A stretch of 10,887 nt of DNA from Thiomonas sp. (GTDB taxonomy: Bacteria > Pseudomonadota > Gammaproteobacteria > Burkholderiales > Burkholderiaceae): NCBI GenBank assembly GCA_027443745.1, contig DAIAZB010000133.1:1-10887 (forward strand). The letters are read 5' to 3'. The notes below the pieces were generated by a model, which saw nothing but the letters and a program-made list of their open reading frames with translations, was not told where the DNA came from and ran no database searches. The position numbers and the translations under genes were made by a program. Position 1 is the stretch's first letter. Every line of letters starts with the position of its first letter. This document shows positions 1 to 10,887 of the stretch, in pieces.

Positions 1-65
1 GTGGCTGGTGCAGGCGTCGACCTCGCCAGCCAACGCACCGAGCCGCTGTATTTTTGTATACCGTT

Positions 66-80
66 TGGCACAATTTTTGC
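66..80 (+). promoter_or_regulatory. Sigma-54 (RpoN) -24/-12 promoter
   Basis: The sequence TGGCACAATTTTTGC has the invariant GG (67-68) and GC (79-80) separated by exactly ten bases. It matches the consensus TGGCAC-N5-TTGC at all named positions. The predicted transcription start is near 92, giving a leader of about 160 nt before the permease. Sigma-54 promoters need an enhancer-binding activator such as NtrC, whose sites would lie upstream, mostly outside the window. This fits a permease and racemase for nitrogen-containing rings. The match is seen directly; the choice of activator is inference. Confidence 0.75.
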
Positions 81-184
81 GTGCCACTGTTCGCGCGAAT
101 GGCCATTCGCCACCATGCTCCGTTCGCGCATCCTCGCTGTCAATCGGCCTCATCATCATCGGCGCCCCTTGCCACCGGGTTCAC

Positions 185-206
185 GTTGACGGGCTCGACC
201 GTCGAC
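185..206 (+). promoter_or_regulatory. Leader hairpin before the permease
   Basis: GTTGACGG (185-192) pairs with CCGTCGAC (199-206) over eight pairs, one of them G-U, around the six-base loop 193-198. The right arm also belongs to a perfect 12-base palindrome, TCGACATGTCGA (202-213), so the two folds exclude each other. No run of T follows, so this is not an intrinsic terminator. It could be a regulatory leader structure or a DNA operator, or chance in GC-rich sequence. Confidence 0.3.
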
Positions 207-250
207 ATGTCGATGCTGCCTGATCCCGCTTTCAACTCGGAGTCTGCCCC

Positions 251-1738
251 ATGAACACGTCCACAGCAGGTCTTGGTGTCACCCAAGCCCCATCCCCCGA
301 TGCCGACAACGAAGACATCATCATCAAGCCCGGCTACAGCCCCCGCTTGGTCAATGCGGACCTCGCCCCGCTCAAGCACCAGCGCTGGGGCGCCTACAAC
401 ATCTTCGCCTTCTGGATGTCGGATGTGCACAGCGTGGGGGGCTACATCACCGCAGGCAGCCTGTTCGCGCTCGGTCTGGCCAGTTGGCAGGTGCTGGTCT
501 GTCTGCTGGTCGGCATCGTGATCGTGCAGTTGCTGGCCAATCTGGTGGCCAAGCCGAGCCAAGTCACCGGCGTGCCCTATGCGGTCATCAGCCGCGCTTC
601 GTTCGGCGTGCTGGGAGCCAACATCCCGGCGGTCACGCGAGGCTTGATCGCCTTCGCCTGGTACGGCATTCAGACCTATCTCGCATCGAGCGCGCTGATC
701 ATCGTCATTCTCAAGTTCATGCCCGGGCTGGCCCCCTATGCCGATGTGCATCAATATGGATTCGTCGGCCTGTCTAGCCTCGGCTGGGTGGCGTACATGG
801 TGCTCTGGGTGCTGCAAGCCCTGGTGTTCTGGAAAGGGATGGAAGCCGTGCGGATCTTCATCGATTGGGCCGGTCCGGCGGTTTATGTGGTGATGTTCGC
901 CCTCGCGTTTTATCTGGTGTCCAAAGTGGGGCTGTCGAACATCGACATGAATCTCGGCTCGGTCAAATTCACAGGCCTGCAAGCCCTGCCGGTGATGATC
1001 AACGCCATCGCCCTGGTGGTGTCGTACTTCTCCGGGCCTTTGCTGAATTTCGGCGATTTCGCCCGTTACAGCAAGAGCGTACCCGCTGTGAAGACCGGCA
1101 ATTTCTGGGGTCTGCCGGTCAACTTCCTGGGTTTTTCGGTTCTCACCGTCATCACCACGGCGGCCACCTTGCCCTTGTTCGGCAAGCTGATCACCGATCC
1201 TGTGGAGACGGTCAGTCATATCAACAGCACCTTCGCCGTCGTGCTCGGTGCCATGACCTTCACGCTGGCCACGATGGGCATCAACATCGTCGCGAATTTC
1301 GTGCCTCCGGCCTTCGACTTCTCCAACGTCGCCCCGCAGACCATCAGTTGGCGCATGGGCGGCATGATCGCGGCCGTGGGCTCGATTTTCATCACGCCCT
1401 GGAACATCTACAACAATCCTGACGTGATCCATTACACCCTGGACATCCTGGGCTCTTTCATCGGCCCCTTGTTCGGGATTCTCATCACCGACTATTACCT
1501 GATCAAAAAACAGCGCATCGATGTCGACGCGCTCTACAGCATGGAGAAAACCGGGCGCTATTGGTACCGCGGCGGAGTGAACCCAAAGGCTGTGGCAGCC
1601 CTGGCTCCGGCCGCATTCATCGCGATTCTGATGGTGCTCGTTCCGGTGTTGTCCTCGCTGGCCAATTTCACCTGGTTCATCGGTTGCGCCACGGCCGCGG
1701 TGCTCTACCTGGTGATCAATCGCAGTTCATCCACGTGA
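251..1738 (+). CDS. NCS1-family permease (hydantoin/allantoin/cytosine type)
   Basis: This 495-residue polytopic inner-membrane protein, with about 12 hydrophobic segments, belongs to the nucleobase:cation symporter-1 family (Mhp1, PucI, CodB relatives), which import purines, pyrimidines, allantoin or hydantoins with Na+ or H+. Family-like features are the N-terminal 'NADLAP' followed by 'RWGAYNIFAFW' (residues 35-55), 'AFAWYGIQ' (134-141, W137 and Q141 at the place of the ligand-binding Trp/Gln of Mhp1), 'DWAGPA' (205-210) and 'GINIVANF' (343-350). The ATG has GGAG at 239-242, eight bases upstream. It follows a sigma-54 promoter and lies six bases before a hydantoin/allantoin-type racemase, which points to a cyclic ureide as substrate. 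Family is certain; substrate is inferred from context, and cytosine or uracil remain possible. Confidence 0.9.
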   Translation: MNTSTAGLGVTQAPSPDADNEDIIIKPGYSPRLVNADLAPLKHQRWGAYNIFAFWMSDVHSVGGYITAGSLFALGLASWQVLVCLLVGIVIVQLLANLVAKPSQVTGVPYAVISRASFGVLGANIPAVTRGLIAFAWYGIQTYLASSALIIVILKFMPGLAPYADVHQYGFVGLSSLGWVAYMVLWVLQALVFWKGMEAVRIFIDWAGPAVYVVMFALAFYLVSKVGLSNIDMNLGSVKFTGLQALPVMINAIALVVSYFSGPLLNFGDFARYSKSVPAVKTGNFWGLPVNFLGFSVLTVITTAATLPLFGKLITDPVETVSHINSTFAVVLGAMTFTLATMGINIVANFVPPAFDFSNVAPQTISWRMGGMIAAVGSIFITPWNIYNNPDVIHYTLDILGSFIGPLFGILITDYYLIKKQRIDVDALYSMEKTGRYWYRGGVNPKAVAALAPAAFIAILMVLVPVLSSLANFTWFIGCATAAVLYLVINRSSST

Positions 1739-1744
1739 GATGCC

Positions 1745-2479
1745 ATGAAGATCCTGATCATCAATCCCAACTCCACCGCCAGCATGACCCACAAAATCGG
1801 CGAGGTGGCCTTGCGCATCGCGGCGCCCGGAACGACGGTCAGAGCAGTGAATCCGCCGGACTCTCCTGCGTCCATCGAGTGCCATACCGAGGAGGCGTTG
1901 TGTGTTCCTGGCCTGCTACGCTGCATTCAGGATGCCGAGGCGCAGGGCTATGACGCTTACGTCATTGCCTGCTTCGGTGACCCGGGCCTCGACGCCGCAC
2001 GCGAGCAGGCCCGTGGCCCGGTGATCGGCATCGCCGAAGCGGCGATGCACGCCGCCAGCATGGTGGCCAACTCCTTCAGTGTCGTGACCACCCTGGAACG
2101 TACCGTCGGCATGGCCTGGCACCTGGCGGAGCGCTACGGCATGCAGCGTTTCTGCAGGAACGTCCGTGCCGCTGATCTGCCCGTGCTCGACCTCGAGGAT
2201 CCGAGCAAGAACGCCCGCACGCTGATTCGAGATGAGTGCCTGCGTGCCCTGCGCGAAGACCGCTGCGAGTCCATCGTGCTCGGTTGCGCCGGGATGACGG
2301 ACCTGTGCCGGTCGCTGTCGGATGAGATCGGCGCGCCTGTCATCGATGGCGTCGCCGTGGCCGTGAAACTGGTCGAATCGCTTGTCACGTTGGGCCTTCG
2401 CACCAGCAAACTCGGCGACTGGGCGACGCCGCCGCTCAAGCCGGCATGCGCCCCCCTTGCCTCGAGATCTGGTTCCTGA
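1745..2479 (+). CDS. Asp/Glu/hydantoin racemase family protein
   Basis: A 244-residue cytosolic enzyme of the cofactor-independent Asp/Glu/hydantoin racemase family. It opens with 'ILIINPNSTASMT' (3-15). The two catalytic cysteines sit in 'ACFGDPGLDAA' (C76) and 'LGCAGM' (C181), the positions known for bacterial hydantoin racemases, where one Cys abstracts and the other returns the alpha proton. The length is normal for the family. It starts six bases after the permease stop without a strong ribosome binding site of its own, so translational coupling is likely. The substrate is probably a 5-substituted hydantoin or allantoin; the sequence alone does not separate the two. The partner hydantoinase, allantoinase or carbamoylase is not in this window. 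Confidence 0.88.
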   Translation: MKILIINPNSTASMTHKIGEVALRIAAPGTTVRAVNPPDSPASIECHTEEALCVPGLLRCIQDAEAQGYDAYVIACFGDPGLDAAREQARGPVIGIAEAAMHAASMVANSFSVVTTLERTVGMAWHLAERYGMQRFCRNVRAADLPVLDLEDPSKNARTLIRDECLRALREDRCESIVLGCAGMTDLCRSLSDEIGAPVIDGVAVAVKLVESLVTLGLRTSKLGDWATPPLKPACAPLASRSGS

Positions 2480-2635
2480 CCTGATCGGCGCATCGCCTCA
2501 AGTCTTGCATCTCTGGGCCGCTGCCCACCGCGTGGGATGGCGTTGGTGTTCGCAGCCACGTTCTTTGCCATTTCACCGCATTGCTGCTGAAGGCAAGGGC
2601 CTGTCGGTGGGTCATGGAATCCGTTACATTGCCAA

Positions 2636-2653
2636 ATTGACGTATACGTCAAT
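2636..2653. promoter_or_regulatory. Perfect 18-bp palindrome, probable operator for icmF
   Basis: ATTGACGTATACGTCAAT reads identically on both strands over all 18 bases and sits 87 bases before the icmF start. A perfect palindrome of this length in the gap before a catabolic gene is a strong operator candidate for a dimeric TetR- or MerR-type regulator. The ACGT-centred half-sites recall, from memory, operators reported for regulators of branched-chain acyl-CoA catabolism (LiuR-like). That assignment is unverified. The palindrome contains TTGACG and TATACG, which resemble -35 and -10 hexamers but are not correctly spaced with a partner. Confidence 0.6.
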
Positions 2654-2660
2654 GACAACT

Positions 2661-2681
2661 CCTGCAGCGACAAGCCGCAGG
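2661..2681 (+). promoter_or_regulatory. Hairpin in the icmF leader
   Basis: CCTGCAGC (2661-2668) pairs with GCCGCAGG (2674-2681) in seven pairs with one A/C mismatch, closing a five-base loop, gacaa. It lies eight bases after the palindrome and 59 bases before the icmF start. No T tract follows, so it is not an intrinsic terminator. It may lie at the start of the transcript. Chance occurrence is possible. Confidence 0.2.
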
Positions 2682-2728
2682 TGATGCCGATGAACACCGA
2701 AGCGCACGGCGCGATGCACGCCGTGTCC

Positions 2729-2734
2729 AAGGAG
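2729..2734 (+). promoter_or_regulatory. Ribosome binding site of icmF
   Basis: AAGGAG lies six bases before the ATG at 2741 and decides the start. The same frame is open from a GTG at 2681, but that codon has no Shine-Dalgarno sequence, and family members begin close to the 'MTDLS' encoded at 2741. Confidence 0.8.
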
Positions 2735-2740
2735 ACCGCA

Positions 2741-5700
2741 ATGACCGACTTATCCGACGCCAAACTGCTGGCCGCCTACCGTCCGCAACAGCGACTGCGC
2801 TTTGTCACGGCCGCGGCACTGTTCGACGGGCACGACGCGGCCATCAACATCATGCGACGCATCCTCATCAGCATGGGCGCCGAGGTGGTGCACCTGGGTC
2901 ACAACCGCTCGGTCGATGACATCGTCACAGCGGCCATTCAGGAAGACGCGCACGGCATCGCCATCTCCAGCTATCAGGGCGGGCATGTGGAATTTTTCCG
3001 CTACATGATCGACCGGCTGCGTGCACTCGGTGCTGGGCATGTCCAGGTGTTCGGCGGCGGCGGCGGCGTGATCGTGGCCGACGAAATCGCCGCGCTGCAA
3101 GCCTATGGCGTGACCCGCATCTACAGCCCCGAGGACGGCCAGCACCTGGGGCTGCAGGGCATGATCGGCGACATGCTGATGCGCGCCGATCACGCCCTGC
3201 CAGCACTGAACAACCAACAGGCGTTGCAGGCCCTCGGGACGGACGCATGCGTGCTGGCGCGTGTCATCACCCAACTGGACAATGGCGTGGCCGACGCAGC
3301 TCTGCTGCGCGACCTGCACACCCAGGCCGAGGCCGCGCATGGGGTGGTCTTGGGCGTAACGGGCACGGGCGGCGCCGGCAAGAGCAGCCTGGTGGACGAG
3401 CTGATCCGCCGCCTGCGGCTTGACCAGGACGACGCCCTGCGCATCGGCGTGATCAGCATCGACCCCTCGCGGCGCAAGAGCGGCGGCGCGCTGCTGGGCG
3501 ACCGCATCCGCATGAACGCGATCGGACCGTGGCAGCGGGCAGGCTCCCTTCCCCAGTCCTCCCCACAAGTGGAGAGGGCGTCTCTCACCCCTCACCCACC
3601 CGTGGCGGAGGTTGGGAGGAGAAATGGCGTGTTCATGCGCAGCCTCGCCACGCGCGAGGCGGGCAGCGAAATCAGCAAGGCGCTGCCCGACGTGATCGCC
3701 GCTTGCAAGGCAGCCGGCTTCGATCTGATCATCGTCGAGACCTCCGGCATCGGCCAAGGGGATGCCGCCATCGTGCCGCATGTCGATGCCAGTCTGTACG
3801 TGATGACACCGGAATTCGGCGCGGCCAGTCAATTGGAAAAAATCGACATGCTCGACTTCGCCGACTTCGTCGCCATCAACAAATTCGATCGCAAAGGCGC
3901 GATGGATGCGCTGCGCGACGTGGCCAAGCAGTTGCAGCGCAACCGCGAAGCGTGGGCCACCAAACCGGAAGAGCTGCCCGTGCTCGGCACCATGGCCAGC
4001 CGCTTCAACGACGATGGCGTGACCGCGCTGTATCAGGCCATCAAGCCACGCCTGGCCGAGCGTGGCCTGCAGTTCAAGGAGGGGCGTTTGTCGATTGCGG
4101 CCACTCGCCACAGCACCCACCAGACCCCCATCATTCCCGCTGCGCGTGGCCGTTATCTGGCGGAAATCGCCGACACCGTGCGCGGATATCACCGCCGTGT
4201 CGAGCTGCAGACGGCACTCGCACGCGAAGCGCAGCAGCTGCGCGCCAGCGGTCGCATGCTGCGCGCGGCCAACCCCAACAAGGTGGCCGCGGTCGAGGCG
4301 GTCAACGATCTGGCGGAACAACGCGAGGCGAAAATGCTGCCGGCCGCACGCAAGCTGCTGGCGATGTGGCCGCAGATGCAGCAGGCCTATGCGGGCCGTG
4401 AATACGTGGTGAAGATCCGCGACCGCGAAATGCGCACCGCCCTCACCCACACCACGCTGTCAGGCACCACGGTGCGCAAAGTCGTGCTGCCGAAGTATGA
4501 AGACCATGGTGAGATCTTGCGCTGGCTGATGCACGACAACGTCCCCGGCAGCTTTCCTTACACCGCGGGCACCTTTGCGTTCAAGCGCAGTGGCTCGGGT
4601 CAAGGCAACGAGGATCCCACCCGCATGTTCGCCGGCGAGGGTGACCCGTTCCGCACGAACCGGCGCTTCAAGCTGCTCTCCGCCGGCATGCCCGCCAAGC
4701 GGCTGTCGACCGCCTTCGATTCGGTCACGCTGTACGGCGCCGATCCCGACCGCCGCCCCGACATCTACGGCAAGGTGGGCAACTCGGGCGTGAGCATCGC
4801 CACGCTCGACGACCTCAAGGCGCTGTACGACGGTTTCGACCTGTGCGAGCCAGCCACCAGCGTGAGCATGACCATCAACGGCCCTGCGCCGACCATCCTG
4901 GCGATGTTCCTGAACACGGCCATCGACCAGCAGCTGGCCAAATTCCTGGCTGACAACGACCGCGAACCGACCGACGACGAGGCGCAAAAAATCCAGGCCT
5001 GGGTGCTGGAAAACGTCCGCGGCACGGTGCAGGCGGACATCCTGAAAGAAGATCAGGGACAGAACACTTGCATCTTCTCCACCGAGTTCTCGCTCAAGGT
5101 CATGGGCGATATTCAGGAGTATTTCGTCCACCACAAGGTGCGCAATTTCTACTCGGTGAGCATCAGCGGCTACCACATTGCCGAGGCAGGAGCCAACCCC
5201 ATTTCGCAACTCGCGTTCACGCTGAGCAACGGTTTCACTTTCGTTGAGGCGTACCTGGCTCGTGGCATGCACATCGACGATTTTGCCCCCAACCTGAGCT
5301 TCTTCTTCAGCAACGGCATGGACCCGGAGTACAGCGTGCTGGGACGCGTGGCACGGCGCATCTGGGCCGTGGCGATGCGCGACAAGTACGGTGCGAACGA
5401 ACGCAGCCAGAAGCTCAAGTACCACGTGCAGACCAGCGGTCGCAGCCTGCATGCGCAGGAAATTGCGTTCAACGATATTCGCACCACGCTGCAGGCGCTG
5501 ATCGCGATCTACGACAACTGCAACAGCCTGCACACCAATGCCTACGACGAGGCCATCACCACGCCCACCGAGGAGAGCGTGCGCCGGGCCATGGCAATTC
5601 AGCTCATCATCAACCGCGAGTGGGGACTGGCCAAGTGCGAGAACCCGAACCAGGGCGCGTTCATCATCGAGGAGCTCACCGACCTCGTGGAAGAAGCCGT

Positions 5701-6118
5701 GCTCAAGGAGTTCGAGGCCATTGCCGACCGTGGCGGGGTGCTGGGTGCCATGGAAACCGGCTACCAGCGCGGCAAGATCCAGGAGGAGAGCATGCATTAC
5801 GAAATGCTCAAGCACACTGGCGAGTTGCCCATCGTCGGTGTCAACACCTTCCGCAATCCGCATGGCGACGCCGTCTCGACCCATCTTGAGCTGGCACGCT
5901 CCACCGAGGAGGAAAAGGAGTCGCAGCTGCGCCGCCTGGCCGACTTCCACCAGCGCCACGCCGCTGCAGCACCGGCCATGCTGCAGAGACTGCAACAGGC
6001 AGTGATCGACAACCGCAATGTGTTCGCCGTGCTGATGGAGGCGGTGCAGGTGTGCAGCCTGGGGCAGATCACCAACACCTTGTTTGAAGTCGGCGGGCAG
6101 TACCGGCGCAGCATGTAG
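2741..6118 (+). CDS. icmF: Fused isobutyryl-CoA mutase (IcmF)
   Basis: This 1125-residue adenosylcobalamin enzyme interconverts isobutyryl-CoA and n-butyryl-CoA, and in known homologues also isovaleryl-CoA and pivalyl-CoA. It joins three parts. The B12-binding domain is at about 15-145, with 'DGHD' containing the lower-ligand H31. The MeaB-like GTPase chaperone is at about 200-450: P-loop GTGGAGKS 208-215, 'DPSRRKSGG' 241-249, 'ETSGIGQ' 333-339, 'NKFD' 380-383. The mutase barrel is at about 560-1125, with 'SGYHIAEAGA' and the C-terminal 'GGQYRRSM'. F630 ('RMFAGEG') and Q774 ('DQGQNTC') replace the Tyr and Arg of methylmalonyl-CoA mutase, which marks isobutyryl specificity. The protein is about 30 residues longer than the Cupriavidus enzyme (1093, from memory), accounted for by residues 268-293, encoded by a palindromic repeat. 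It probably serves valine or short branched acyl-CoA metabolism. Confidence 0.96.
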   Translation: MTDLSDAKLLAAYRPQQRLRFVTAAALFDGHDAAINIMRRILISMGAEVVHLGHNRSVDDIVTAAIQEDAHGIAISSYQGGHVEFFRYMIDRLRALGAGHVQVFGGGGGVIVADEIAALQAYGVTRIYSPEDGQHLGLQGMIGDMLMRADHALPALNNQQALQALGTDACVLARVITQLDNGVADAALLRDLHTQAEAAHGVVLGVTGTGGAGKSSLVDELIRRLRLDQDDALRIGVISIDPSRRKSGGALLGDRIRMNAIGPWQRAGSLPQSSPQVERASLTPHPPVAEVGRRNGVFMRSLATREAGSEISKALPDVIAACKAAGFDLIIVETSGIGQGDAAIVPHVDASLYVMTPEFGAASQLEKIDMLDFADFVAINKFDRKGAMDALRDVAKQLQRNREAWATKPEELPVLGTMASRFNDDGVTALYQAIKPRLAERGLQFKEGRLSIAATRHSTHQTPIIPAARGRYLAEIADTVRGYHRRVELQTALAREAQQLRASGRMLRAANPNKVAAVEAVNDLAEQREAKMLPAARKLLAMWPQMQQAYAGREYVVKIRDREMRTALTHTTLSGTTVRKVVLPKYEDHGEILRWLMHDNVPGSFPYTAGTFAFKRSGSGQGNEDPTRMFAGEGDPFRTNRRFKLLSAGMPAKRLSTAFDSVTLYGADPDRRPDIYGKVGNSGVSIATLDDLKALYDGFDLCEPATSVSMTINGPAPTILAMFLNTAIDQQLAKFLADNDREPTDDEAQKIQAWVLENVRGTVQADILKEDQGQNTCIFSTEFSLKVMGDIQEYFVHHKVRNFYSVSISGYHIAEAGANPISQLAFTLSNGFTFVEAYLARGMHIDDFAPNLSFFFSNGMDPEYSVLGRVARRIWAVAMRDKYGANERSQKLKYHVQTSGRSLHAQEIAFNDIRTTLQALIAIYDNCNSLHTNAYDEAITTPTEESVRRAMAIQLIINREWGLAKCENPNQGAFIIEELTDLVEEAVLKEFEAIADRGGVLGAMETGYQRGKIQEESMHYEMLKHTGELPIVGVNTFRNPHGDAVSTHLELARSTEEEKESQLRRLADFHQRHAAAAPAMLQRLQQAVIDNRNVFAVLMEAVQVCSLGQITNTLFEVGGQYRRSM
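3544..3618. repeat. REP-like double palindrome inserted in frame in icmF
   Basis: The element is bounded by CTCCC (3544-3548) and GGGAG (3614-3618) and is 75 nt, exactly 25 codons. Inside are two palindromes with the same arms, CCTC..CCAC / GTGG..GAGG. The first (3558-3577) has the loop AA and the second (3590-3611) the loop CC. On the minus strand the first half reads like the GAGAGGG/CCCTCTCC repetitive extragenic palindromes widespread in proteobacteria (from memory). It encodes residues 268-293, low-complexity and rich in Pro, Ser and Arg, between 'DRIRMNAI' and 'VFMRSLATR', which are adjacent or nearly so in IcmF relatives. AGG/AGA arginine codons (3575, 3617, 3620) occur here, against mainly CGN codons around it. 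Confidence 0.75.
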
Positions 6119-6135
6119 TTCCCCAACCAAGAATC

Positions 6136-6140
6136 GAGGA
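6136..6140 (+). promoter_or_regulatory. Ribosome binding site of the ABM-fold gene
   Basis: GAGGA lies seven bases before the ATG at 6148, supporting that start and translation independent of icmF. Confidence 0.65.
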
Positions 6141-6147
6141 AACAACC

Positions 6148-6435
6148 ATGATTCACATCCTGGCACGTATCACGGCAAAACCCGGCAGCACCGAGCAGGT
6201 TCACGCCGCTCTGCTCGACTTGGTGAGCCACACGCGGCGGGAACCCGGATGCAAGCTCTACACGCTGTTCCAGCGCGACGACGAGCCAACCGTTTTCATG
6301 ACCGTGGAGCAGTGGCTCGACCAAGCCAGCGCCGATGCCCACATGCGCACTGCACATCTTGCTGCCGCCATGGCGCAGGCGGGCCCGCACCTGGCCGCAG
6401 CTCCCGAAATTCACCGATACACCGCATTGGCTTGA
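6148..6435 (+). CDS. Antibiotic biosynthesis monooxygenase (ABM/YgiN-like) domain protein
   Basis: A 95-residue protein of the dimeric ferredoxin-like ABM fold, the family of the putative quinol monooxygenase YgiN and small cofactor-independent oxygenases. The pattern is typical: an N-terminal strand 'HILARITAKPG' (3-13), the helix ending in 'REPGC' (31-35), a strand leading to 'VEQW' (53-56) and 'ADAHMRTAH' (62-70). The length matches a single-domain member. It starts 29 bases after icmF in the same direction, so co-transcription is likely. A role with IcmF is not established; protection against oxidation products or small-molecule turnover would be guesses. The substrate is unknown and some family members have no proven catalysis. 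Confidence 0.82.
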   Translation: MIHILARITAKPGSTEQVHAALLDLVSHTRREPGCKLYTLFQRDDEPTVFMTVEQWLDQASADAHMRTAHLAAAMAQAGPHLAAAPEIHRYTALA

Positions 6436-6460
6436 TCTGGGGCGCTCGACACATCAAAGC

Positions 6461-7315
6461 TCAAATCATGGCCAGTTGCTGCTTGCGGCGTGGCGCGGGA
6501 AAGATCGCATCGATGGCAGCGCAAGCGGCGGCGTCCAGGGTTGTCGAGGCAGCCACCAGGTTGTCGCGCAGATGCTGCAGACCGCCCGCCTTGGGAATGG
6601 CCATCACCCCGGGTTGCCGCAACACCCAGGCGAGAGCGAGTTGTGCCGCGCTGAGCCCGAGAACCCGAGCCAGCGCAGCCAGACGCGTGTCGTGTGCGAG
6701 TTTGCCTTCGTCAAGGGGGCTGTAGGCCATCAGCGGAATGCGCTGGTTTTGCATCCAGGGCAGCAGGTCGAATTCGACGCCACGGCTGCTGGCCGCGTAA
6801 TAAACCTGGTTCGTCGCGCAATGACCACCGCCGTCCAATTGCCGCAATGCGTGCATGTCCTGCAAGTCGAAATTGCTCACGCCCCAATGGCGGATCCGGC
6901 CCGCAGCGACCAAACGGGTGAATCCCTCCAGCGTCTCTTCCAGAGGCAGGCTACCGCGCCAGTGCAACAGATAAAGATCGATCTGCTCCAAGCCGAGTCG
7001 GTGCAGACTGCGCTCGCAAGCGGCCTGCACCCCAGCGGCACTGGCGTGATGCGGATAGACCTTGCTGACCACCAGCACTTGCTCGCGCTTGACCACACCC
7101 TCACGCACAGCGCCCGCCAGGGCCTCGCCCACCACGCGCTCGGCACCACCTTCGCCATACATCTCGGCGGTATCCAACACGCGGTAGCCGAGCTCCAGGG
7201 CGTGGCGCACGGCGGCGACTTCGCCGGCATGGCGCGTCGCGGCTTCACCGAAGCGCCATGTGCCCAGTCCCACCGCTGGCCATTGCTCTGCATCACCGAG
7301 TTGCACAAGGTTCAT
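6461..7315 (-). CDS. Aldo/keto reductase
   Basis: A 284-residue cytosolic NAD(P)H-dependent oxidoreductase that reduces aldehydes or ketones to alcohols. The aldo/keto reductase tetrad is complete: D48 and Y53 in 'LDTAEMYGEG', K85 in 'VVSKVYP', H118 in 'YLLHW'. 'GVSNF' (145-149), 'YSPL' (198-201) and the cofactor-binding 'IPKAGGLQHLRDN' (240-252) also fit. The ATG at 7315 is chosen because the protein then begins 'MNLVQLG' just before the first barrel strand. A start at 7345 would overlap ubiB by 26 bases. It follows the ubiB stop by four bases, so it is probably translated from the same mRNA. The physiological substrate is unknown, and a link to ubiquinone synthesis is only positional. Confidence 0.93.
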   Translation of the reverse strand: MNLVQLGDAEQWPAVGLGTWRFGEAATRHAGEVAAVRHALELGYRVLDTAEMYGEGGAERVVGEALAGAVREGVVKREQVLVVSKVYPHHASAAGVQAACERSLHRLGLEQIDLYLLHWRGSLPLEETLEGFTRLVAAGRIRHWGVSNFDLQDMHALRQLDGGGHCATNQVYYAASSRGVEFDLLPWMQNQRIPLMAYSPLDEGKLAHDTRLAALARVLGLSAAQLALAWVLRQPGVMAIPKAGGLQHLRDNLVAASTTLDAAACAAIDAIFPAPRRKQQLAMI

Positions 7316-7319
7316 CGCT

Positions 7320-8891
7320 TCAGACCCCGAGCCAGTGCCGCGCATTCCACAAAGCCAACAACAACAGAAAGACCACCAGCCCGACGACGAAACCGATCAA
7401 GCCCTGCAACAACGCATTGGTCCGCCGTTGTTCCTGCAACAGCTGGCGTGTCAGCTCCCGCTCGGTCGGCTGTTGCGCTTGCTCCAGGGCGTGATAGATC
7501 ATGCGAGGCAAGGCCGGGAAGTACTGGGCGAAGCGCGGCGCCTCTTTTTGCAGATGGTCGCGCAAAGCGCGCCAGCCAACCTGGCTCTGCATCCAGCGCT
7601 TGAGGAAAGGCTGGGCGGTCGTCCAGAGATCCAGGTCGGGGTCGAGCTGGCGTCCCAGACCTTCGACATTCAGCAGGGTTTTTTGCAACAGCACGAGCTG
7701 CGGCTGGATTTCCACCTTGAAGCGACGGGACACCTGGAACAGGCGCAGCAAAATCTGTCCCAGGGAAATGTCTTTCAGCGGGCGCTCGAACTGCGGTTCG
7801 CACACGGTGCGAACCGCAGCCTCCAGTTCGTCGACGCGGACCTCGGCCGGCACCCAGCCGGATTCGAGATGCAGCTCGGCCACACGCCGGTAATCGCGCC
7901 GAAAGAAGGCGATGAAGTTTTGTGCCAGATAGTCCTTGTCGAACTCCGACAGCGTGCCGATGATGCCGAAATCCAGCGCGATATACCAGCCGAATGTTTC
8001 GGGCGCGAGGCTGACCATGATGTTGCCCGGATGCATGTCGGCATGGAAAAAACCATCGCGGAAGACCTGGGTGAAGAAGATCTCGACCCCGCTTTGCGCC
8101 AGTTTGTGGATGTCCACCTCGGCCTCACGCAGGCGGTCGATCTGGCTGATGGGCACGCCGTGCATGCGCTCCATCACGATCACGCTCTCGGTGCAAAGAT
8201 CCCAGATCATCTGCGGAATCAGGACCAGCCCCAGACCATCCATATTGCGGCGCAGTTGCGCCGCATTAGCCGCCTCGCGAACGAGGTCAAGTTCATCGTG
8301 CAGGTATTTATCGAACTCGGCCACCACTTCGCGTGGCTTGAGGCGCTTGCCGTCGGACCAGGCGCGCTCAACCCAGGCAGCCAGGGTCTGCATCAAGTCC
8401 AGATCCTGGTCGATGATTTTGCGCATGCCGGGTCGCAGCACCTTGACCGCCACCTCGTGCCCGCCTTGTTCGGCCGGCAGCACCGCAAAATGCACCTGTG
8501 CGATGGAAGCACTGGCGACAGGAGTGCGATCGAGACTGGCAAACAGCTTGGTCAGGGGCTGACCCAAGGCCTGCTCGATCAGCCTCACCGCCTGATCGGA
8601 GTCGAAAGGCGGAACGCGATCCTGCAGCTTGGCAAGCTCGTCGGCGATATCGGTGGGCAAAAGATCGCGCCGCGTGGACAGCATCTGCCCGAACTTGACG
8701 AAGATCGGGCCCAGGCTTTCCAGCGCCAGGCGCAGGCGCTGCCCTCTCGGGGCATCGAGCCTGCGGCCGACGGCAAGAATACGCGCCAGGAGTCGCAACC
8801 AGCGATGGCGAAAACCGCTGAGGACGAGTTGATCGAGCCCGTAGCGATGGGCAACCGTTGCAATACGCAACAAACGCAGAAGGCGGCGCAT
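7320..8891 (-). CDS. ubiB: UbiB, ubiquinone biosynthesis ABC1/ADCK-type atypical kinase
   Basis: This 523-residue protein belongs to the ABC1/COQ8 kinase-like family, which supports the hydroxylation steps of coenzyme Q synthesis, probably as an ATPase at the membrane. Visible motifs are the UbiB-specific KxGQ ('[10 protein letters not shown]', K66), the Ala-rich loop 'ASASIAQVH' (126-134) replacing the Gly-rich loop, the nucleotide-site Lys in 'VAVKVLRPG' (K150), '[11 protein letters not shown]' (200-210), 'HADMHPGN' (283-290) and the metal-binding 'DFG' (307-309). A C-terminal hydrophobic segment at about 496-514 anchors it. The start '[10 protein letters not shown]' agrees with the family. 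It lies three bases after the ubiJ stop and four before the reductase start. Assignment is firm. Confidence 0.95.
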
Positions 8892-8894
8892 CCC

Positions 8895-9554
8895 TCAGTT
8901 CCGCGCCGTTGGGGCGGTACGGCGCGCAAGCAGCTGAACGCGCTTGTCGAGCCTGGCGGTGGCGTCACGCAATTGCGCCAATTCGACACTGCAGGCCGTG
9001 AGCTCGGCGCGCCCAACGAGTGCGCGCGGCGCTTCAGCCAACCAGTCCTTCGCGTCGGCCTCGACCTGCCGGCGTAGGCGCCGACCCTGAGCCAGCACGT
9101 CGCGCCCGACGCGAACCAGTCGATGTGCCGCCAAGTCGCCAAGAAGTTGGGCGAGGTCATCCTCTGCATCCCAGCGCAGATGGCCGAGCAGCCAGGAAAC
9201 CGTCTGGGCAAATTCGGCATCGCCCGTGATACGCACACCCGTCAGCCCCAGCGCCTGTCCACGCCATTGGGACGCCAAAACAGTGGAGACGTCGAGATCG
9301 AGCCTGAGTTCAGGTGGTCGCGTCAAGGACGAGGTGGGCACTGGCGCCAACTCGCCCGTCGGGGACAACTGCAACAGGGCGCTTCGGCCCGCGACGTGCA
9401 GGGACAGGTGTTTACCGCTGTGTGCTCGTAGACGCTCTTCGGCCTGCGCTTCCTGGCGGACGAGGTGATTGATGACTCGGGTCACGAGCAGCACAGCGCG
9501 TTGCTGCAGGCGGTCTGGCCAGGGCAATGTTGGGCTTGGATCGGTGCTGGGCAT
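8895..9554 (-). CDS. ubiJ: UbiJ-like ubiquinone biosynthesis accessory factor (SCP2 domain)
   Basis: A 219-residue protein matching UbiJ, which through its SCP2 lipid-binding domain helps organise the Q-biosynthesis enzymes and bind their hydrophobic intermediates. Features are the amphipathic start (11-35), the beta-rich SCP2 region (about 45-125), 'RWDAEDDLAQLLGDLAAH' (127-144), strongly reminiscent of the family, and a C-terminal coiled coil (about 182-211). The length is close to E. coli UbiJ. The ATG at 9554 gives the family-like N terminus but has no clear Shine-Dalgarno sequence. The frame is open to 9746, with another ATG at 9689. The position directly before ubiB supports the call. 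Confidence 0.87.
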   Translation of the reverse strand: MPSTDPSPTLPWPDRLQQRAVLLVTRVINHLVRQEAQAEERLRAHSGKHLSLHVAGRSALLQLSPTGELAPVPTSSLTRPPELRLDLDVSTVLASQWRGQALGLTGVRITGDAEFAQTVSWLLGHLRWDAEDDLAQLLGDLAAHRLVRVGRDVLAQGRRLRRQVEADAKDWLAEAPRALVGRAELTACSVELAQLRDATARLDKRVQLLARRTAPTARN

Positions 9555-10125
9555 GGACGGTGTGCAATCTGAAGACCATTCTAGGAGCCTGCGGTAAACC
9601 CAGAGCGGCTGGCCAGTGTTGCGCAGTAGGTCGTGTTCCAACGGCATGTCGAGGCCGAGCCAATGCATGCCAAACCCTGCAGCAGGCATCGCCCAATGCC
9701 GCTCGAGTCGGTCTCGCGATCTTCCTCCATCGGCAGGGAGGGCAGCTCATGCGAGCAAGGCCCTTGCGTCAGGCGAGTCGGGGGCCCAGCGCGTCGAAGT
9801 GGGCCAGGGCCAGCACGACGCTGAGCGGCATGCCACTGTTGTGCCGCCAACAGCGCGGCGCGACCGCCGCCTGACCTTGCACGCCGTGGCGCCAAACAGG
9901 AAACCATAGCCGAGGAGCCTGGTTCCCGCGACCCCAACCTCGACTGACTTCCCGCTCCGGTTCATCGCCGTCGCCCTTTCAGGCACAAGACCTAGGGTGC
10001 AGGCCGGCGTAGGACTCACATCCCGGAGTCACGTCGGTGACCGAGAAATCAGCACTGGCACCAATCCTGAATTGGCTGCGGAGTGTGTCGTCAGATGGAC
10101 AGTCGGCTTGAGGCCGCAAACCAAC
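9555..10125. other. 571-base gap, no confident gene; possible decayed coding sequence
   Basis: No family is recognised here. On the minus strand, short stretches have protein-like composition and mostly G or C at third positions, but in different frames: 9831-9772 ('MPLSVVLALAHFDALG...', then a stop at 9771-9769), about 9752-9690 ('HELPSLPMEEDRET') and about 9662-9560 ('LDMPLEHDLLRN', 'LWVYRRLLEW'). Frame changes and stops between them suggest a gene broken by indels, though chance in GC-rich DNA is possible. Small inverted repeats lie next to the upstream gene: GTCAC/GTGAC (10028-10041) and CCAAT/ATTGG (10061-10075), with no T tract. A promoter for ubiJ-ubiB would have to lie in this gap if the operon does not read through. 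Confidence 0.3.
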
Positions 10126-10887
10126 TCAACCCAGTTGTTGAATTCCCGCCAGCAGCCACCCGCCGTTGCCTGAAACCGGCTTGACCAGGTTCCAGACCTC
10201 GCGTACCGACTGCGCGCCACCCCAGCGCTCTTCGCGGACGAGCCCGGAGAATTCAACACTGGCAAGGTATTCACCGCCGAGTTCTTGCAGATCAAGCAAC
10301 ACGGCTTCGAGGGTGACCACATCGGTCTGGTTCTGCGCTCCCCCGCGCTGTTCGATTTCGGACTTGAGTTGCGCGAAGAGTTCAGGCGTGCTGTAGGACT
10401 CGATGCCGTGCAAGTCGCCGGCATCCCAGGCTTTTTGCAGCTGGTAGTAATGCTCACGTGCCTTGTTCAGGAACGCGCGTTGATCGAAGTCTGCCGGAAT
10501 CGCGCCCTGAAGCGCGGTGGCGTTCGCAGCCGGGGCTTGCGTCCCCTCGAAACGCTGCGGCGGTAGATAAGACTCGGGCCCGAGCTGGGCAGCATCGTAG
10601 GCACCACGTGGCATTCCGGCGGGTTGTGGCGTGGACGTGGCACCAGAACGGCGGGACAGCCGCAGCAGGAACATCCCGGCGACCACCGCCAAGCCGGCGA
10701 TCAGAAGAGCCATGACGAATGAGGCCAGACCTGCGCCGAGGCCGAACGCGTGGAATAGCGCCGCCAGCCCAATGCCTGCCGCCAAGCCGCCGAGCAGGCC
10801 GCCCCAACGGTTGGCAGGGCGTGGGCTGGTTGCCGTTGGCGCGACTGACTGCCGTGGGGCCGCGGCAGGGGCTGGAGTGGCCTGTTG
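10126..10887 (-). CDS. Tim44-like domain membrane protein, N terminus outside the window
   Basis: 253 residues are visible and the frame stays open to the window edge, so the start lies beyond 10887. The order is a Pro/Ala-rich stretch ('PAPAAAPRQS'), two closely spaced hydrophobic segments separated by 'FHAFGLG' and ending in 'GMFLLRLSRR', a flexible linker, and a C-terminal Tim44-like domain. That domain starts around 'FDQRAFLNKAREHYYQLQKAWDAGD' and ends 'GNGGWLLAGIQQLG'. Bacterial Tim44-like proteins are inner-membrane proteins of unclear function, related to the mitochondrial import motor subunit. In Burkholderiales this gene commonly lies beside ubiJ and ubiB, as here. Family assignment is good; function is unknown. 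Confidence 0.85.
   Translation of the reverse strand, partial: QQATPAPAAAPRQSVAPTATSPRPANRWGGLLGGLAAGIGLAALFHAFGLGAGLASFVMALLIAGLAVVAGMFLLRLSRRSGATSTPQPAGMPRGAYDAAQLGPESYLPPQRFEGTQAPAANATALQGAIPADFDQRAFLNKAREHYYQLQKAWDAGDLHGIESYSTPELFAQLKSEIEQRGGAQNQTDVVTLEAVLLDLQELGGEYLASVEFSGLVREERWGGAQSVREVWNLVKPVSGNGGWLLAGIQQLG

Follow-up and report, generated by a model that had tools for sequence, protein, structure and literature searches.

BIME/REP doublets, which are associated with RAYT transposases, consist of an inverted pair of hairpins and occur in high copy number with a clade-specific distribution. As for palindromes lying within genes, in-frame intragenic REPs have already been published: in the part of PMC3733652 consulted, palindromic dimers are read in frame as 20-30 residues of conserved proteins, REPs being elsewhere mostly intergenic, and at roughly one position different REPs are found in two recB genes of Xanthomonas. 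The Rickettsia palindromic elements (RPE) are also in-frame repeats in conserved enzymes, and an RPE-bearing guanylate kinase is still active (PMC2229807, PMC3733652, in the parts consulted). Regarding MeaB, the consulted part of PMC10481361 places switch I at residues 92-108, with R108 bridging to switch III of the partner protomer.

The DNA analysed here, referred to as the window, comprises 10,887 nucleotides of a Thiomonas sp. (assembly GCA_027443745.1, contig DAIAZB010000133.1, positions 1 to 10,887). On its plus strand, positions 2681..6118 encode a fused isobutyryl-CoA mutase/GTPase (IcmF), with the B12-binding, MeaB-type GTPase and mutase domains on a single chain (Pfam; 4xc6 match); domain order and G fold are as in the IcmF of Cupriavidus metallidurans (PDB 4xc6, 8sta, 8ssl). 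The start was set mechanically at a GTG, and the true one may be a later ATG. The relevant features are the following:

2681..6118, plus strand: icmF open reading frame, 1145 codons from the mechanical GTG start; Pfam B12-binding, MeaB and MM_CoA_mutase; PDB 4xc6
3461..3511, plus strand: switch I equivalent, residues 261-277 (DPSRRKSGGALLGDRIR), corresponding to MeaB 92-108; numbering of PMC10481361 (part consulted) mapped by alignment
3533..3628, plus strand: loop following GPW, enlarged to 32 codons (residues 285-316), against 5 in the empty sister allele
3544..3623, plus strand: REP-like palindromic element of about 77 bp; profile match at 3545-3620, 47.4 bits, E 5e-14, with a profile built without the window
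3544..3548, plus strand: left outer arm, CTCCC
3558..3577, plus strand: hairpin 1, from the sequence and the family alignment
3590..3611, plus strand: hairpin 2, from the sequence and the family alignment
3614..3618, plus strand: right outer arm, GGGAG
3737..3760, plus strand: switch II region ETSGIGQG, residues 353-360, intact; aligned to MeaB ETVGVGQS

The original prediction described a palindromic segment bounded by CTCCC and GGGAG that enters the GTPase domain of IcmF without breaking the frame, and this was borne out by the coordinates and by the reading frame, which stays open across the element from 2681 to 6118. Its estimate of 25-32 added residues is also correct: the loop between DRIRMNAIGPW and VFMRSLATR has 32 codons against 5 in the sister allele of Thiomonas sp. 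X19 (genome G014), a net gain of 81 nt or 27 codons, and the spacer of 41 residues exceeds by 31 the one of C. metallidurans IcmF (4xc6), which has 10 residues and, unlike the window, no insert.

As single-stranded DNA, the segment 3544-3623 folds modestly better than its dinucleotide shuffles (bettered by 3 of 200, z -2.6), and the strong evidence for the element is its membership of a dispersed family rather than its fold energy. With a profile of 11 Thiomonas copies, all from G014 and the window left out, the copy of the nearest genome examined, G001, scored 44.3 bits, close to the window, and the reversed-sequence control stayed at or below 12.9 bits over all loci examined at that stage; the insert of a third genome, G024, and the empty allele of G014 reached 3.2 and 2.8 bits. 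The two hairpins and the outer arms recur across 12 aligned full copies, namely those of the profile and the window. Inspected by eye, this alignment shows neither GTAG nor CGTC at the element ends; the intragenic REPs of PMC3733652 (part consulted) are GTAG/CGTC-tagged, and they share with the Thiomonas element the placement of palindromes in frame inside conserved proteins. A MITE would have terminal inverted repeats and a target-site duplication; the element has the outer arms CTCCC and GGGAG, and comparison with the empty G014 allele gave no clear target-site duplication, the junction being ambiguous. A pattern search with CTCCC..AAGNGG..CACCC was discarded as too loose, its matches being no commoner than in the control once the known site was set aside.

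Within Thiomonas, the element family is dispersed in some members only. BLAST with one G014 copy (E ≤ 0.1) gave matches in 10 of 41 related genomes, the numbers including the query and counting lone arms and reverse hits of the palindrome apart: 36 in G014, 23 in G001, 15 in G011, 14 in G024, two apiece in G003 and G022, and one apiece in G020, G023, G025 and G039. The many dispersed copies are found in the nearest relatives examined, and those in G001 supply the further copies on which the original prediction depended. With its inverted hairpin pair, high copy number and clade-specific occurrence, the Thiomonas element resembles the BIME/REP doublets; unlike the RAYT-linked ones, it does not flank the Y1 transposase genes of G001, G014 and G024, no copy being present within the approximately 1.5 kb fetched around them. 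Matches to PF01797 (Y1/RAYT-type transposase) occur in all five genomes tested, and G022 has nine of them (Y1_Tnp; L151, L156-L163) with only two element matches, so that a RAYT link to the element was not supported. The flanks of the Y1/RAYT-like genes L153, L154 and L155 (in G024, G014 and G001, respectively) translate with MGSDP/GSDPI-type repeats, a pattern that suggests another palindromic family around these genes.

Other Thiomonas proteins also contain the element in frame; for these, only sites were used whose ORF has a Pfam match before the element, after it or both. An RND pump has it within the ACR_tran domain (L196), and a PutA-like protein after the first of two Aldedh match stretches (L210, G014). 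In three further kinds of protein it separates two domains: 2Fe-2S thioredoxin-like and Complex1_51K in a NuoE/NuoF-like protein (L197), ferredoxin and NuoB-like (L216, L251), and acyltransferase and carrier in a polyketide synthase (L218). Judged from sequence resemblance alone, the RND pump insertion is common to G001 (L224) and G024 (L237), the PutA insertion is also in G024 (L238), and a membrane protein with no Pfam match has an insertion common to G014, G001 and G024 (L202, L220, L234). In L210 and L238 the element sits inside the aldehyde dehydrogenase part, apparently at one site in two species. Gene finding by codon score gave 26 of 68 sites with an ORF spanning the element and positive scores on both sides; the score is blind to strand in this GC-rich DNA and, even in the window, ranked the antisense frame higher, and for this reason sites with no Pfam backing were not used. 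L212 and L214 were dropped, since there the element comes before the domain and the true start may lie after it.

Overall, the frame is open, as predicted by translation, within conserved genes that have Pfam domains at one side of the element or at both. In this, the IcmF inserts are comparable to the Rickettsia elements, being palindromic repeats in conserved enzymes with predicted translation; they differ from RPE in belonging to free-living betaproteobacteria, in consisting of presumably unrelated GC-rich repeats, and in being known from DNA alone. Of the original proposal, the REP-like element, its frame, the new protein segment and the analogy with the Rickettsia elements stand; the comparison itself was too narrow, as the published in-frame intragenic REPs extend far outside Rickettsia (PMC3733652, part consulted), and a single insertion such as that of the window is of a kind already published (PMC3733652, PMC2229807, parts consulted).

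Regarding the history of the insert, a tree of 27 icmF genes with the loop left out gave the topology (G014 empty,(G024 inserted,(window,G001 inserted))), with SH-aLRT values of 100 and 99; the uninserted allele that the original prediction had proposed to seek in relatives is the one of G014. The simplest and favoured reading of this tree is one gain after the split from Thiomonas sp. X19, in the ancestor of the window species, G001 and G024, although a separate insertion in G024, or a gain plus a loss in G014, may also account for it. When the window is compared with G024, nucleotide differences amount to 9.7% and 6.9% in the two flanks, 186 of the 242 differences outside the loop being at codon position 3, whereas they reach 34.4% in the loop, with 8, 13 and 12 differences at codon positions 1, 2 and 3; the loop has 17 amino-acid-changing and 4 silent codons, with no gap and no stop. 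Since the differences are spread over all three codon positions and the frame is kept, the amino acids look free to vary, and the Thiomonas insert shows no sign of residue constraint; nor are its residues conserved in other IcmF proteins, where conservation would have counted against the original prediction. The G024 insert no longer resembles the element family, with an identity to the window of 0.63 against 0.77 for the flanking third positions, and fast decay would explain this divergence only loosely. Other candidate causes for the divergence of this insert (L112) are gene conversion, template switching and a separate insertion.

As for its place in the protein, the insert had been described as upstream of switch II; the position is right, and it is better described as directly after switch I (MeaB 92-108). 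By alignment, MeaB R108 corresponds to R277 of the window IcmF, and the enlarged loop 285-316 begins 8 residues downstream. In the AlphaFold2 model of the G domain, residues 118-145 (protein 286-313) have pLDDT below 50 and the remainder is folded, with 4xc6 as the top Foldseek match (2.4e-33); the 27 extra residues are predicted to be disordered. An element of about 77 bp, with two hairpins inside outer arms and belonging to the family dispersed in Thiomonas, would then have inserted once into the icmF loop adjacent to switch I, in an ancestor shared by the window's species, G001 and G024 and after the split of Thiomonas sp. X19; its length keeps the frame and, the frame used having no stop, it would be translated as 27 extra disordered residues that leave the GTPase fold and the switch motifs intact.

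The same loop is enlarged in other bacteria. A set of 332 distinct IcmF proteins was assembled from two protein searches and the loci, and its frequencies are inflated because the queries bore inserts and the best 120 per search were taken. In this set, inserts of at least 15 residues occur at one alignment position in 74 proteins and two columns further on in one more (union 75), as opposed to two proteins (P0158, L075) with such inserts at other internal sites and three with N-terminal extensions. Sorted by peptide pattern, 70 of the 332 are like one of the repeat families (A 7, B 9, C 50, D 4), another 15 long and unlabelled, and 247 plain, the labels of L112 and P0070 having been set by hand.

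Two draws were made with an insert-free query. In the order-wide one, 75 of 300 genomes matched, and among 76 loops read the spacer was of 10 residues in 59, of 14 in 15, of 18 in one and of 30 in one, neither of the last two resembling repeat families; as 74 of 76 loops have 10 or 14 residues, inserts are rare outside the window's family. In the family-wide draw, 309 of 399 genomes matched, 51 of them weakly only (hand count), leaving 258 with IcmF. Thirty genomes, G001 among them, had broken or shortened alignments; of the 29 loci fetched from these, 27 have loops of more than 14 residues, one is plain with 14 (L376), and in another (L400, G497:C70) the contig starts within a family-C-like insert, so other cases may go unseen where repeats at the IcmF loop have broken the assembly. 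Among the 29 best full-length family loci, four have loops of 19-27 residues and at least 25 the plain 14-residue spacer. Overall, the loop is enlarged in at least 33 of the 258 genomes, a lower bound with about 198 loops outside the reading, and in 23 of these it resembles palindromic repeats: 20 of the 29 fetched loci by DNA signature (A 5, B 5, C 9, D 1), L394 and L400 by eye, and G001. Another six of the 29, with loops of at least 14 residues, fit no family.

Some enlarged loops look merely Gly/Ser/Ala-rich (L075, L382, L384, L393), as would be expected if the loop had grown by low-complexity sequence or had been misassembled with no mobile-type repeat involved. For the window this is very improbable: its element matches the dispersed family with the E value given above, and the insert is shared by G001, a separate assembly, and by P0001 and P0002; inserts moreover occur in genomes of 1-4 contigs, e.g. 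G573, G397 and G530.

The loop inserts appear to belong to three or four unlike families, four representatives giving no meaningful cross-match (best E 0.25). Family B is a GTTCGCCCTGAGCCTGTCGAAGG palindrome, which the genome of L049 (2.7 Mb) matches 35 times; family C is a CCCCCCGAGGGGG element found in either orientation, whose L032 copy has 13 matches in its own genome and a self-fold not better than shuffles (z +0.6); family D, with 4 matches including itself, is weakly supported as a repeat. The family A inserts from outside Thiomonas reach at best 12.6 bits with the Thiomonas profile (reversed control 6.7) and may form a separate family; L071 and L385 are identical in sequence.

This diversity bears on whether the loop DNA is favoured by the mobilising machinery, with the protein merely tolerating the result. 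Several repeat families at one site would fit such a preference, but the families are unlike in sequence, the distance from the Trp codon varies (6-8 codons in B, 11-15 to the motif in forward C), family C occurs in both orientations, and the Thiomonas element is also in unrelated genes; we regard target choice as distinctly improbable, and infer that filtering at the protein level is the cause of the hotspot.

As for the number of events, parsimony on the 332-protein set puts the minimum at 36 switches between the repeat-like and the plain state, a figure from one FastTree tree without support values and from peptide-pattern labels, with the 15 long unlabelled rows left out. These features of the estimate leave some room for fewer events, in which ancient inserts were inherited or spread by recombination of icmF alleles and then decayed; so does the frame, which is constant within families B (6 of 6 with the motif), forward C (5 of 5) and reverse C (4 of 5 by pattern, the fifth by eye), and in 4 of 5 of family A. 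On the other hand, insert DNA is more alike than the flanking third positions in 19 of 21 pairs of B, 9 of 10 of forward C and 10 of 10 of reverse C, opposite to the window and G024, and it was therefore argued that these insertions would be younger than the split of the genes; the counts are 6 of 10 for A, where the flanks of L390 are visibly misaligned, 0 of 1 for D and 1 of 3 for Thiomonas. The constant frame in B and C is a sign either of a filter on frame or of an overcount of events, and we consider the latter rather unlikely as a general account.

The frame is also an argument for adaptive capture, since B and C keep one frame across different genera though two to three frames are open in most of their inserts. 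In that case, the loop next to switch I would be a natural landing pad for unrelated repeats, one frame per family, whose tails were selected because a longer disordered segment alters the contact between IcmF G domains, GTP turnover or cofactor loading, thereby tuning G-domain pairing and loading of the cofactor; the loop indeed begins 8 residues past the switch I arginine that in MeaB bridges to the switch III of its neighbour (PMC10481361, part consulted). Against this, the Thiomonas insert lacks residue constraint, the insert sequences are unlike one another, and plain spacers prevail in the full-length family loci and order-wide. We judge this account unlikely, also in the form of a landing pad whose tails are selected. 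Tolerance is a simpler reading than exaptation or altered signalling because the insert residues look unconstrained; the inserts would then be neutral, and a function beyond tolerance could at most be conjectured.

The reading we hold with high confidence joins the insertion of the Thiomonas element with a permissive loop that repeatedly receives repeats, which survive if their frame is acceptable. The loop adjacent to switch I would be the sole place in IcmF that accepts such inserts; unlike repeat families would have landed there in many Burkholderiaceae, those with open and acceptable frames surviving, so that the enzyme's one permissive loop is most likely under a steady rain of repeats.

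In open-licence PMC full text, no report was found of unlike repeats recurring at one IcmF loop. The same-site intragenic REPs involve one gene in two species (PMC3733652, part consulted), whereas IcmF has one loop, several families and many genera, and this recurrence appears new. It would mean that palindromic DNA of a selfish type repeatedly feeds new segments into a conserved enzyme at one site. Lineages with inserted and empty alleles offer natural experiments on a GTPase that takes a disordered insert beside switch I, making it a testable question whether inserts are tolerated or used; caution is also due with modelled IcmF loops in these bacteria, which would be young, unconstrained sequence.

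Finally, some minor observations concern the loop itself. Selection of the most hydrophilic frame was not supported: set against other open frames, the frame used was the less hydrophobic one in only 10 of 43 cases. In the window's family the usual spacer is the 14-residue xPW form, and order-wide it is one of 10 residues; inserts were seen with the PW form. P0158 has, besides its insert elsewhere, a family-B insert in the loop adjacent to switch I, and in P0009 the 97-residue spacer at this loop consists of three tandem family-C-like units.
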